Position numbers and translations under genes: made by a program | The notes under the pieces: model-generated | What the model was told of the DNA's origin: nothing | The model's database searches: none | The model's input: only the letters and a program-made list of their open reading frames with translations | In this document: positions 2-4,032 of the stretch, piece by piece | Layout: each line of letters opens with the position of its first letter | Position numbering within the stretch: position 1 is the first letter of the stretch | DNA from: Candidatus Dormiibacterota bacterium | GTDB taxonomy: Bacteria > Chloroflexota > Dormibacteria > Aeolococcales > Aeolococcaceae | Assembly: GCA_036495095.1 (NCBI GenBank) | Contig: DASXNK010000067.1 | Coordinates: 1-64,000 of the forward strand | Length of the DNA: 64,000 bases | Direction of reading: 5' to 3'

Positions 2-76
2 AGGTGCTTCAATCCGCTGCGCGGCGACCCCGCGTGCCTTCAGCAGGGTGAGAACCGACAGTGCAGGGCGTGGTGA
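2..76 (+). CDS. 3' end of an unidentified upstream gene (partial)
   Basis: A reading frame open from the window edge closes with TGA at 74-76. Its third codon positions are strongly G/C (about 20 of 24), unlike the competing frame that stops at 51. The tail is Cys-containing (for example CFNPLRGDPAC). It would overlap the start of tatC slightly, which fits the tight packing seen elsewhere. The product cannot be named from 24 residues, and the call rests only on codon bias. Confidence 0.3.
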   Translation, partial: RCFNPLRGDPACLQQGENRQCRAW

Positions 77-804
77 ACGACGACCGGCGGATGACCATCA
101 TCGAGCACCTCGAGGAGCTCCGGAAGGTGCTGATGATCTCCATGGGCGCATGGGTCGTCGCCACCTTCGGCGCCTTCTTCTTCCACGACCGGCTGCTCGC
201 GCTGCTGGAGAAGCCGCTCAAGGAAGTGCTCGGCAGGGGGAATCACCTCGTCCGCGCGCCGATCGTCACCACCCCCACCGAGCCGCTGACCATCCCCCTC
301 AAGGTCTCCGCGATCGCGGGGTTCGCGATCGCCCTGCCGATCATCCTCTGGCAGGTGTGGACCTTCGTCTCACCGGGGCTGCGCAAGGCGGAGCGGAAGT
401 TCGCCTGGCCGTTCATCGTCTCGGCCGTGCTCCTCTTCGCCGTGGGCGCCTGCTTCGCCTACCTCGTGATGCCGGTCGGGCTCAACTTCCTGGCCGGGTT
501 CCTCGGGTCCAATGCCGAGTTCCTCCCCGACCTCAACGCCTACCTCAGCTTCTTCACGATCCTCATCGTCATCTTCGGGGTGACCTTCGAGCTGCCCATC
601 GCCATCCTGCTCCTGGGCCTGCTCGGCATCGTCTCCTCACGCTTCCTGCGCAACCGGCGCAAGGGGATCTGGGTGGGGATCGTCTTCGTGGCCCTGGTGG
701 TGACCCCGGGTGCCGATCCCTTCACCCCGACCGCGCTCTTCCTGCCCCTGATCATCCTCTTCGAGGCCAGCATCGTGGTCCTCGACAAGGTGTTCAAGCG
801 CTGA
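61..804 (+). CDS. tatC: Sec-independent protein translocase TatC
   Basis: TatC is the multi-spanning core of the twin-arginine translocase, which recognises RR signal peptides and exports folded proteins. The 247-residue product has the family's usual length, about six hydrophobic segments, and the N-terminal cytoplasmic signature HLEELRKVLM near residues 16-25. Conserved stretches such as PLTIPLKVS and VTPGADPFTP match the family. The start may be GTG 61, GTG 70 or ATG 91; all keep the conserved HLEEL region. A possible substrate lies 1.4 kb away: the Rieske protein carries an SRRGFL motif. The 3' end overlaps the convergent lipoprotein gene by 11 nt. No tatA/tatB is visible here. Confidence 0.95.
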   Translation: MQGVVNDDRRMTIIEHLEELRKVLMISMGAWVVATFGAFFFHDRLLALLEKPLKEVLGRGNHLVRAPIVTTPTEPLTIPLKVSAIAGFAIALPIILWQVWTFVSPGLRKAERKFAWPFIVSAVLLFAVGACFAYLVMPVGLNFLAGFLGSNAEFLPDLNAYLSFFTILIVIFGVTFELPIAILLLGLLGIVSSRFLRNRRKGIWVGIVFVALVVTPGADPFTPTALFLPLIILFEASIVVLDKVFKR

Positions 805-1678
805 CCGGCCGCCCTCCCGACGAGCCGGCGGTGGAGTGGCCGCCGCTCGACACCCTGCTCCTCGGCGAGCCGCCGCCGGTCGGCGAGCCGCCGACGACGG
901 GATGGCGCACGGGGTGGCCGGTCCCGGGGCTGCCGGCGGTGCCGGAGCCGAGCGCGCAGCTCCAGGGGTAGGGCTGGCAGGCGGAGGTCTCCTGGGCCTC
1001 GGGATAGGCGCAGTGCGAGCTCGGGGTGCCGGTGAGGTGGTCGTCGGCGTCACCGTCGCCGTCGCACTGGCTGTTGTGGGCGCTGCCCGGCGCGGCCAGG
1101 CCGAAGTCGTGGAAGACGATCGGGTCCGAGGAGGTGCCGGCGTAGCTGCCCGTCGACGGCCAGGTCACGGTGGTGCCGTCGGGGTAGACGGCGGTGACGA
1201 TGGCGCTCACCGATCCGCCGGAGCCGACGGTGAGGGTGGCCTCCTCGGAGCGGCAGGCGCTGCCGCCCTCGCAGGGCGCGTAGCCCTCGGGGTTGGTCGC
1301 GTTGCCCGGCGGGGTGACCGTCTGCCGGATGGTGTACGTCCCCGGTCCGGGCGCCGCGAAGCTGGCGCAGCCCTTGCCGGCGGCGCCACAGCTGCCCTGC
1401 TGGAGCGGGCATCCGGCCGAGGGGCCGAGCGATCCGGTGCCGCCTGTCGGAGTGGTCACGGTGATCGACACGCCGCCACCGCCGACGGTGTAGGCGGCGC
1501 CGCCCAGCGCCTGCTTGCAGGAGTCCATGGTCTGGACCCAGACCCCGCCGCCGCCCCCGCCCGATCGGTGGGTGCTCGCCTGCACCGGGCCCGCCCCGGC
1601 GGCGAAGGCGCTGCCGCACGCGGCGACGAGCAGTGAGATCGAGGCGACAGCGAATCGCAGGCGCATCGAGCGCATCAT
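794..1678 (-). CDS. Putative secreted Gly/Ser-rich lipoprotein
   Basis: The 294-residue product starts with a basic N-terminus and a hydrophobic signal segment ending in a lipobox (LVAAC, Cys about 21), so it is probably lipid-anchored outside the membrane. The rest is rich in Gly, Ser, Thr and Pro with several Cys pairs, including a GCPLQQGSCG-type segment, and ends in a low-complexity Gly/Ser/Arg tail. I recognise no catalytic domain. The ATG is preceded by an excellent ribosome site (GGGAGG five nt upstream). The gene converges on and overlaps tatC by 11 nt. The C-terminal tail reads in compositionally simple DNA, so its exact end deserves caution; function unknown. Confidence 0.7.
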   Translation of the reverse strand: MMRSMRLRFAVASISLLVAACGSAFAAGAGPVQASTHRSGGGGGGVWVQTMDSCKQALGGAAYTVGGGGVSITVTTPTGGTGSLGPSAGCPLQQGSCGAAGKGCASFAAPGPGTYTIRQTVTPPGNATNPEGYAPCEGGSACRSEEATLTVGSGGSVSAIVTAVYPDGTTVTWPSTGSYAGTSSDPIVFHDFGLAAPGSAHNSQCDGDGDADDHLTGTPSSHCAYPEAQETSACQPYPWSCALGSGTAGSPGTGHPVRHPVVGGSPTGGGSPRSRVSSGGHSTAGSSGGRPVSA

Positions 1679-1775: not shown

Positions 1776-2165
1776 TCAGGAGCCGGGGGCCGGGGTGGGG
1801 GAGGGTCCGCGTGGCACCACCGTGATCGTCCCGGTCATCTGCGGGTGGTAGCGGCAGTGGAACGCGATCGTCCCCGAGTCCGGGGTGGTGAAGGGCGCGG
1901 TGTTGAGCTCGCCGGGGTCGGCGTCGGCGCTGGCGTGCACCGAGCCGGCGGTGAACGAGTGCTCCACCGCGCCCGCGTTGACCAGGGTCACGGTGACCAG
2001 GGATCCCGCCGGGACCACCGCGGTGGCCGGGTCGAAGCGGAGGTCGCGGGCGGTGATGCGGAGCTGCACGCCGCCGGGATTGGGGCCGGCGGTGGTCCCG
2101 CAGCCCGCGGCGGCGAGCCCCAGTCCGAGGCCGAGCAGCGCCGCGGCCGGGGCACGACCGGTCAC
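1776..2165 (-). CDS. Cupredoxin-domain lipoprotein
   Basis: A small blue-copper-like protein of 129 residues, probably membrane-anchored. The GTG start overlaps the Rieske stop by 4 nt (GTGA), which fixes the start. A lipoprotein signal (LAAAGC, Cys22) is followed by a beta-rich domain. Type I copper ligands are all visible: His69 in VEHSF, then Cys104, His107 and Met110 in FHCRYHPQM. The protein ends in a short Pro-rich tail. It is the last gene of the ECF sigma / Rieske / cupredoxin operon, so it may carry electrons to or from the Rieske centre or sense copper or oxygen stress; that role is inference. Confidence 0.85.
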   Translation of the reverse strand: MTGRAPAAALLGLGLGLAAAGCGTTAGPNPGGVQLRITARDLRFDPATAVVPAGSLVTVTLVNAGAVEHSFTAGSVHASADADPGELNTAPFTTPDSGTIAFHCRYHPQMTGTITVVPRGPSPTPAPGS

Positions 2166-2815
2166 ACCACCAGCACCTCGACCCGGTCTCCGACCACCCG
2201 CGAGCGCAGCCGGGGGAGCGGGGTGGTGAGGTACTCGCGGTCGACCGAGGCGCCCTGGAGGTCGAAGGAGGCGCCGTGGCAGGGGCAGCGCAGGCTGTCG
2301 GCCCGCGCCTCGAGCAGGCATCCCATGTGGGTGCAGACCGCCGAGAGCGCGTGGACGCCGCCGTCGGGATGGGGCACGAGCACCCCCTCCACCGAGCCCG
2401 CCCGGAAGCGCAGCGGCCGGCCGCCGGCGAGGTCCGCGAGGGTGGCGACCGGGTGCCAGCTGCCGGTGGCGGGCACCAGCTCGCCCTGGGCGCGGTCCTG
2501 GTCGGTGCGGCGCACGCCGAGGTCGACGGCCACCCCCGCGGCGGCGGCGGCGGCGATCCCGCCCCCGATCAGGAAGCCGCGGCGGCTCGGCTCCCGGCGG
2601 CGGCCGGGGGCGGGCTCGAGCTGCTCGCGGAGCTCGGCCTCGAGCCCGGAGACGAACTCGGCGGAGGGCAGGTCGGTGGCGGTGCGAGCGCCGCGCAGCG
2701 AGGCGGCGACCTGGAGCAGCCGGGCGTCCTCGGGGTCGGCCTCGAAACGCGGCGGCCGGCGATCGCGGAGCAGCGCGTCGACGAAGCGGCGGACCCGGCG
2801 GTCGCCGCGGCTCAC
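2162..2815 (-). CDS. Rieske [2Fe-2S] protein with cytoplasmic N-terminal extension
   Basis: A 217-residue Rieske protein. Residues 1-75 form a charged, probably cytoplasmic region (starts FVDALLRDRRPPRF near residue 11); then comes a twin-arginine signal-anchor (SRRGFLIGGG, residues 78-86) and an Ala-rich membrane segment. The Rieske domain follows, with box 1 CTHMGC (Cys161, His163) and box 2 CPCHG (Cys177, His180); Cys166 and Cys179 can form the usual disulfide. The GTG start overlaps the ECF sigma stop (GTGA). Coupling to a sigma factor suggests that the N-terminal region could act as an anti-sigma domain and make this a redox-responsive regulator. That is inference; a simple electron-transfer role is the alternative. 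Export would use TatC. Confidence 0.9.
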   Translation of the reverse strand: MSRGDRRVRRFVDALLRDRRPPRFEADPEDARLLQVAASLRGARTATDLPSAEFVSGLEAELREQLEPAPGRRREPSRRGFLIGGGIAAAAAAGVAVDLGVRRTDQDRAQGELVPATGSWHPVATLADLAGGRPLRFRAGSVEGVLVPHPDGGVHALSAVCTHMGCLLEARADSLRCPCHGASFDLQGASVDREYLTTPLPRLRSRVVGDRVEVLVV

Positions 2816-3348
2816 GGGGCCTCCTCCGCGACCCGGGCGGCGGCCCTCAGGCCCCGGTGGGTCAGCACCTTGGCGTTGCCCTCGCTCACGTCCATCTCCC
2901 GGGCGGTCTCGCGCACCGACAGCCCCCGCAGGAAGCGCAGCTCCAGCACCCTCCGGTAGTGGTCGGGGAGGCGGGCCAGCAGGGCGGCGACCCGCCGGCG
3001 GTTGGAGGCCCCCTCGTCGCCGCTCGCGGGGAGCGGCGACGGCACCAGGTCCTCGGCGTACTCGGCCATCACCACCCCGTAGTGGGTGGCCCAGTGCTCG
3101 GCGAGCAGGCTGCGGGCGGTGGCCCGCAGGTAGGCGCGCGCCTCGCCCTCGGAGGCGGTGGGGCGGAGCCGGGGGAGCGCCTTCAGGAACACCGTGGCGG
3201 TGAGGTCCTCGGCGTCGGCGCGGTTGCCGCAGCGGGCGAAGACGAAGCGGTACACCGGGACCACGTGGGCGCGGTACAGCGCCTCCCAGCCGGTGGTGTC
3301 CTCCCCACCGACCACGTGCAGTCGCGATGCCGGGCTGCCTGGCTCCAT
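2812..3348 (-). CDS. ECF-type RNA polymerase sigma factor
   Basis: The 178-residue product has the two-domain layout of extracytoplasmic-function sigma factors. Region 2 lies at about 20-95 (with the YRFVFARCGNRADAEDLT core that binds core enzyme and the -10), and region 4 at about 115-175, with the helix-turn-helix LSVRETAREMDVSEGNAKV. It would direct RNA polymerase to a small regulon in response to an external or redox cue. It is the first gene of a three-gene operon with the Rieske and cupredoxin proteins (two GTGA overlaps), so these are its likely regulators or targets. A purine-rich ribosome site (AAGGAGA) lies about 11 nt before ATG. Confidence 0.92.
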   Translation of the reverse strand: MEPGSPASRLHVVGGEDTTGWEALYRAHVVPVYRFVFARCGNRADAEDLTATVFLKALPRLRPTASEGEARAYLRATARSLLAEHWATHYGVVMAEYAEDLVPSPLPASGDEGASNRRRVAALLARLPDHYRRVLELRFLRGLSVRETAREMDVSEGNAKVLTHRGLRAAARVAEEAP

Positions 3349-3402
3349 CGACCTCGGGTCTCCTTCGCCACGGGACGTGTCGGAGTCTCCTACGCCCGGT
3401 GG

Positions 3403-4032
3403 TTACAGGTATCCCTGGGTGCCCCGCAGCACCCCGGACTCGGCGAGCCGGGCGACCGCGCGGCCCCGGTGGGAGACGGTGTCCTTCTCCTCGGCGCCGG
3501 CCTCGCCGAAGGTGCGGCCCAGGTCGGTGGAGAGGAAGGCCGGGTCGTAGCCGAAGCCGCCCGTTCCCCGCGGCTCGACGAGCACGCCGTCGCACGAGCC
3601 CCGGGCGATGATGACGTCGGCGCCGGGCCGGGCGAGGGCGAGCACGGCGACGTAGCGCACCCGGCGGTCGCCGGGGGTGCGCCGCTCCACCTCGTCGAGC
3701 AGGCCGCGGAGCCGGTCGGCGTCGCTCGCCGCCTCGCCGAGCCAGCGGCTCGACCGCGGCCCCGGCCAGCCCCGGAGCGCCTCCACCTCGATGCCGCTGT
3801 CGTCGCCGAGGGCGCACAGCCCGGTCGCCTGGGAGACCTCCACCGCCTTGGCGCGGGCGTTGTCCTCGTACCCGGGCCCGGGCTCGTCGACGTCACCGGC
3901 GAAGCCGGCGTCGTCGAGGCTGAGCAGGGTCCACGGGTGGTCGCGGAGCAGCCGCCGGAACTCCACCAGCTTGCCCGGGTTGCGGGTGGCCACCACCAGG
4001 GGCGTCCGGGGCATCAGCCGGGGTCCCGCCAT
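3403..4032 (-). CDS. rdgB: XTP/dITP diphosphatase (HAM1/RdgB family)
   Basis: This pyrophosphatase hydrolyses non-canonical purine nucleotides (dITP, XTP) to monophosphates and keeps them out of DNA and RNA. The 209-residue product shows the family's N-terminal VVATRNPGKLVEF (residues about 13-25), the acidic DDSGIEVEAL block near 77, and the C-terminal GFGYDPAF and KDTVSHRGRA blocks for substrate and metal binding. ATG 4032 overlaps the rph stop (ATGA), which supports it over the second Met seven codons in. The rph-rdgB pairing is a widespread bacterial arrangement. Nothing looks truncated. Confidence 0.95.
   Translation of the reverse strand: MAGPRLMPRTPLVVATRNPGKLVEFRRLLRDHPWTLLSLDDAGFAGDVDEPGPGYEDNARAKAVEVSQATGLCALGDDSGIEVEALRGWPGPRSSRWLGEAASDADRLRGLLDEVERRTPGDRRVRYVAVLALARPGADVIIARGSCDGVLVEPRGTGGFGYDPAFLSTDLGRTFGEAGAEEKDTVSHRGRAVARLAESGVLRGTQGYL

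Follow-up and report, generated by a model that had tools for sequence, protein, structure and literature searches.

Genetic organization of the locus

The window, by which we mean the whole stretch of 64,000 nucleotides of Candidatus Dormiibacterota DNA analysed here, carries on its minus strand, in this order, rph, rdgB and the genes for an ECF sigma factor, a Rieske protein and a cupredoxin lipoprotein. The sigma gene (2812..3348) encodes 178 amino acids. The Rieske gene (2162..2815) has a GTG start, overlaps the sigma stop by 4 nt and encodes 217 amino acids, and the cupredoxin gene (1776..2165) encodes 129 amino acids and overlaps the Rieske stop. At both junctions, the sequence itself shows a 4-nt GTGA overlap, and these overlaps, together with the Pfam matches of each product, confirm the three overlapping genes described in the initial annotation. 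The Rieske protein comprises a cytoplasmic N-domain (residues 1-75; 2591..2815), which is a candidate anti-sigma domain, a twin-arginine motif (RR, residues 78-79) with a hydrophobic signal anchor (2515..2584), and an extracytoplasmic Rieske [2Fe-2S] domain (2165..2461), all on the minus strand. On the same strand, a candidate promoter, TGTAACCACCGGGCGTA, lies at 3391..3407, 42 nt ahead of the sigma ATG, and overlaps the stop codon of rdgB.

At the beginning of the window, tatC (61-804, plus strand; PF00902, 2e-63) lies near the Tat-dependent Rieske gene, an association not seen adjoining other sigma-Rieske pairs. It is followed by a gene for a secreted 294-aa protein without Pfam match (794-1678, minus strand), which is kept at the same position in the sister species. 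We rejected rph, rdgB and the secreted protein as conserved flanking genes, as they are shared with the sister species only; clustering of the genes neighbouring the pairs was swamped by shadow ORFs.

The sigma factor belongs to a discrete ECF family

The sigma factor matched Sigma70_r2 (4e-08) and Sigma70_r4_2 (4.5e-13) above the cut-offs, and scored 66.8 bits against the sigma70-ECF superfamily model TIGR02937, for which the cut-off is 42.9. It contains sigma2 and sigma4 and neither sigma3 nor sigma1.1, as expected of an ECF sigma factor. Its nearest solved relative, found with the family profile, is BldN (chain 6dxo_A, E 1.3e-26), and Streptomyces BldN was also the best match in two Streptomyces genomes (E 3e-30). 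The family constitutes a discrete clade, with about 98 matches at E <=7e-48, followed by a fragment and then by matches at 1e-26.

The Rieske domain is distinct from that of cytochrome bc subunits

The Rieske protein matched PF00355 (9.6e-14), carries the ligand boxes CTHMGC and CPCHG, with the CxH and CxxH patterns of a Rieske [2Fe-2S] protein, and shows the corresponding fold, its top Foldseek matches being PetC3 (5cxm) and 8hn2. The TAT_signal model PF10518 scored 14.7 bits, below its curated cut-off; the two arginines are conserved in 75 of 75 aligned members. All 75 members retain the four cysteines, and the first and second ligand histidines are present in 90% and 98%, respectively. The first histidine is replaced by aspartate in about 7% of members, giving CxDxxC with the four cysteines kept (L128, L137, L140, L177, L180, L190, L193, L300), and this replacement seems to have multiple origins.

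The bc1/b6f Rieske subunits share with this protein the Rieske fold, an uncleaved Tat-type anchor (PMC5449189) and four conserved cysteines, two of them ligands and two forming a disulfide. However, the protein studied here differs from them by the added N-domain, the sigma partner and the loss of the bc1 hydrogen-bond donors: the bc1-type tyrosine is a phenylalanine in 110 of 115 members and is itself found in only one, and the bc1-type serine is present in 2 of 115. In bc1 Rieske proteins, this serine and tyrosine donate hydrogen bonds, and work on bc1 mutants ties them to the redox potential. Because both are mostly lost, the potential of the cluster is predicted to lie below that of bc1 Rieske centres. 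Moreover, the window Rieske gene is not encoded with a cytochrome b; since a cytochrome b gene of the genome (C27:11097-11666) adjoins a different Rieske gene (C27:12043), the window protein is unlikely to be the bc subunit that goes with this cytochrome b.

The sigma-Rieske pair is conserved

A total of 133 distinct sigma-Rieske pairs were found in the window's class, in the rest of its phylum and in some Actinobacteria. Close, full-length relatives of the Rieske protein are encoded by 15 MAGs labelled Chloroflexi, in each case directly downstream of the same sigma, and the full-length protein is present in 66 of the 110 genomes of the class. The sigma gene lies immediately upstream in 76-77 of the 79 class loci read; of the exceptions, L194 lies at a contig end and L154 is a second, degenerate copy carried by the sister genome. 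The sigma stop and the Rieske start overlap in 73 of the 77 class loci measured, a number favoured by our picking of the start nearest an overlap. A profile built from the N-domain alone found matches in 76/110 genomes of the class, 85/400 of the phylum and 9/396 of the phylum to which an actinobacterial genome belongs, where two matches were weak. Of the loci first read outside the class, all 41 combine sigma, N-domain, anchor and Rieske domain, and so do the actinobacterial loci L323-L327. No such sigma gene adjoins the more distantly related Rieske proteins that lack the N-domain (L016 onward). Given this recurrence, the pairing is not a chance or local accident. In L321 (G648:C70), one sigma gene is followed by two tandem Rieske genes, each with an N-domain, and in L154 (G008:C305) a cupredoxin gene that has a motif of its own (see below) comes after the degenerate Rieske copy without sigma.

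All three genes together, the cupredoxin gene directly following the Rieske gene, were seen in the window, in the sister species (L117), in L132 and L263, and in the actinobacterial loci L302, L303 and L305. This trio is rarer than the sigma-Rieske pair, and most pairs have no adjoining cupredoxin. Conservation of the trio, named as a check in the initial annotation, is thus upheld for its first two genes, which are widely kept together, whereas the third is in this position in few loci.

Nine sigma paralogues (L312-L320) have neither a Rieske gene nor an N-domain next door; the genomes carrying these orphans also carry paired copies. Most of the orphans belong to one clade. In addition, a 48-nt in-frame deletion in the sister species (L117/L001) has removed 16 residues of the N-domain, and L117 keeps, along with its shortened N-domain, the sigma factor and a variant motif, TGTAACCCGGAGGGGTA. 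Loss of the Rieske N-terminus from a locus that keeps the sigma factor had been named beforehand as evidence against regulation by the Rieske protein. The nine orphans and the L117 deletion fit that description in part, a mixed outcome, but they are a minority and look derived.

The Rieske protein resembles membrane anti-sigma factors in predicted layout

About 75 charged residues precede the twin arginine. Folded alone with AlphaFold2, the N-domain is predicted to form three helices (residues 3-16, 28-45 and 52-66; pLDDT mostly 65-80); in the model of the whole protein, the Rieske domain reached a pLDDT >90 and the anchor was not resolved. The topology predicted from the sequence and AlphaFold2, a cytoplasmic helical N-domain, a membrane helix and an outside domain, is that of membrane anti-sigma factors, as was first proposed from the charged 75-residue segment before the Tat anchor. 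Such an arrangement is found in RseA and RskA, single-pass class I anti-sigmas with a cytoplasmic helical domain, one membrane helix and an outside sensor domain. Their general layout is like that of the Rieske protein, which is the only one of the three with a Tat-type anchor and an iron-sulfur domain.

Among the closest known systems is BldN-RsbN of Streptomyces (6dxo), in which the nearest solved relative of our sigma is paired with an ASDIII membrane anti-sigma. RsbN crosses the membrane once, has a three-helix cytoplasmic domain (PMC7406223) and is encoded downstream of its sigma, much like the predicted layout of the Rieske protein. However, RsbN has no Rieske domain, the regulons differ and the N-domain shows no significant sequence similarity to RsbN (hhalign probability 0.1 on a per cent scale; shuffle z 1.4, -0.8 and 0.0). 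No Pfam, NCBIfam or PDB family matched the N-domain, the fold search gave no Foldseek match below E 1.9, VIA-align reached a Z of at most 5.8, to unrelated helical proteins, and the N-domain has no Hx3Cx2C zinc motif, an optional element of class I anti-sigma domains (ASDI).

In three genomes (L155, L157, L163), a divergent sigma-like protein (sigma profile E 2.6e-12 to 2.4e-22) is encoded just ahead of the pair; it ends in a copy of the N-domain (E about 1e-8 to 2e-11) and has neither anchor nor Rieske domain. Because these natural fusions join the N-domain to a sigma-like partner, contact between the N-domain and the sigma factor is suggested. A stand-alone copy of the N-domain is inserted between the sigma and Rieske genes in L120. 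Coevolution analysis of the 133 pairs by mean-field DCA (Neff 70) gave an output dominated by noise. In L238 (G030:C59), a different ECF sigma is followed by an 802-aa membrane protein with an Ig-like domain (Big_5) and a weak N-domain match (E 3.5e-4 in a small set), which might possibly reflect a wider anti-sigma domain family. The N-domain looks as though it acts like the anti-sigma RsbN, and is a candidate anti-sigma domain.

A short-spacer motif precedes the sigma gene

A motif, tGTAACc-N6/7-CGTA, is present upstream of the sigma gene and is conserved in the relatives. Of 129 regions upstream of sigma, 83 contain GTAACC, compared with 4 expected, and 55 contain GTAACN6-7CGTA, compared with 0.08 in shuffles. 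The offset between GTAACC and CGTA was 7 in 49 regions and 6 in 6, with at most 2 regions at any other value (including 2 at 17). The 4.4-Mb genome has no exact TGTAACN7CGTA besides the window site (3407-3391), and the window contains this one match for 0.01 expected. Genome-wide counts of the motif were no higher than those of the reversed control; it is the placement of the motif, rather than its genome-wide number, that is non-random. Together, the 133 pairs, the sigma-N-domain fusions and the common promoter motif strongly support the view that the sigma factor and the Rieske protein form a conserved functional pair.

The canonical ECF promoter GGAAC-N14-19-CGT was searched upstream of sigma and rejected, as its occurrence was near chance. 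The two halves of the motif resemble ECF -35 and -10 elements, yet the conserved spacer is 7 or 6 instead of the canonical 14-17 nt or so. TGTAAC is the -35 element of ECF16 promoters (PMC8315932). The ECF16 systems (EcfF-OsrA, BcrS-AbcS and Caulobacter SigF-NrsF) share with the present one this -35 sequence and an autoregulated promoter, which is presumed here, and we also count as a likeness their response to oxidants in the envelope (PMC3420878, PMC8315932). However, their promoters have a spacer of 14-17 (PMC3420878, PMC8315932) compared with 7 here, and their anti-sigma is a six-helix membrane DUF1109 protein that senses by cysteines instead of a Rieske protein.

This spacing, unlike that of known -35/-10 pairs, and the lack of any other conserved block 16-17 nt from the motif in the regions upstream of sigma would suit the operator of a separate transcription factor, which would be uninformative about the sigma and compatible with a Rieske anti-sigma or with none. 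However, the resemblance of both halves to ECF elements, including the ECF16 -35 (PMC8315932), and the position of the motif, which sits close to start codons and follows the sigma gene across two phyla, make an operator rather unlikely, and the sigma factor itself probably reads the motif.

Cupredoxins and lipoproteins as putative targets

The cupredoxin of the window matched PF13473 (8.2e-14) and contains a lipobox (LAAAGC) and a C-x2-H-x2-M sequence. The 4.4-Mb genome of the window has six GTAACN6-7CGTA sites, of which four precede the window sigma gene, a sigma paralogue and two cupredoxin genes and two are unassigned; two of the three sites of the sister genome precede cupredoxins. In other genomes, the motif is found before PF03640 lipoprotein genes (L334, L335, L343, L345, L346); about ten loci have it between the Rieske gene and the next lipoprotein gene, and L132 has it in front of the cupredoxin. 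The few genes under sigma control thus seem to include copper proteins. The copper protein had initially been taken as a possible part of the sensor; because motif sites also lie ahead of other cupredoxin genes of this genome, it is better read as a member of the regulon and, most simply, looks like a target.

The Rieske protein could likewise be a product of the regulon, an electron-transfer partner of the cupredoxin that the N-domain anchors or docks, with the sigma factor controlled otherwise. Both proteins are electron carriers, a position downstream of an autoregulated sigma suits a target gene, and orphan sigmas without Rieske do occur. However, it is the N-domain, beyond the Rieske domain alone, that tracks the sigma gene, and copies of it occur in sigma-like fusion proteins that have no Rieske domain; moreover, most pairs have no adjoining cupredoxin. 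We therefore hold a purely electron-transferring Rieske protein to be improbable, though worth keeping in mind.

A proposed Rieske-type anti-sigma factor

The best explanation, to which we give a probability of about 0.65, is that the ECF sigma drives its own expression, is held by a Rieske-type anti-sigma and controls copper/redox lipoproteins outside the cytoplasm. The three-helix cytoplasmic N-domain would bind and hold the sigma factor, the Tat signal anchor would span the membrane and the outside Rieske [2Fe-2S] domain would be the sensor. A redox change of the cluster or its damage, by an oxidant, copper or loss of reductant, would cause a conformational change or cleavage of the regulator and free the sigma, which would then transcribe, from the tGTAACc-N6/7-CGTA promoters, the operon that encodes it and very few other genes, those of extracytoplasmic cupredoxins and PF03640 lipoproteins. 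We infer binding, inhibition, redox sensing and release by the Rieske protein from gene context and predicted architecture; the signal itself, whether redox state, cluster damage or copper, is suggested by the type of domain and the regulon.

The conservation of the pair, the fusions, the discrete sigma clade, the placement of the motif and the separate Rieske gene linked to cytochrome b argue for this explanation, as do the concurrent absence of sigma beside the degenerate Rieske copy of L154 and beside Rieske proteins lacking the N-domain. The DCA noise, the absence of an RsbN or fold match, the orphan sigmas, the L117 deletion, the His to Asp replacements, the 7-nt spacer and the control-level motif counts argue against it. 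A positive role of the N-domain, tethering or remodelling the sigma for short-spacer promoters while the Rieske domain reports permissive conditions, would account for a 7-bp spacer that is hard to square with a lone ECF sigma and fits the natural fusions as well as inhibition does, but it is very unlikely, since ECF partners encoded directly downstream are mostly inhibitors and nine orphan sigmas persist without the N-domain. Class I anti-sigmas are linked to about a third of all ECFs (PMC7406223).

The Rieske-type anti-sigma has a stronger form, in which the cluster reads the redox state outside the cell directly and, through a new kind of cytoplasmic sigma-binding domain, gates a sigma that recognises promoters with a 7-bp spacer, roughly a helical turn less than in the promoters known for ECF sigmas; as a whole, we regard this form as speculative and doubtful. 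The anti-sigma factors known so far rely for sensing on proteolysis, cysteines, zinc or ligands. A full-text literature search for Rieske proteins with anti-sigma or ECF factors, with the main 2021 ECF classification paper outside its scope, found nothing relevant. The pair, present in well over a hundred soil bacteria, may represent a widespread and apparently undescribed bacterial way to sense redox outside the cell. Envelope signalling in the Chloroflexota is little known; if our explanation is true, these bacteria would gain a switch from redox state to transcription that acts at a defined promoter on a handful of targets, and the PF03640 lipoproteins, whose function is unknown, would gain a regulatory context. 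Finally, if the sigma factor does read a promoter with a 7-bp spacer, the fixed -35/-10 geometry of ECF promoters would be challenged.
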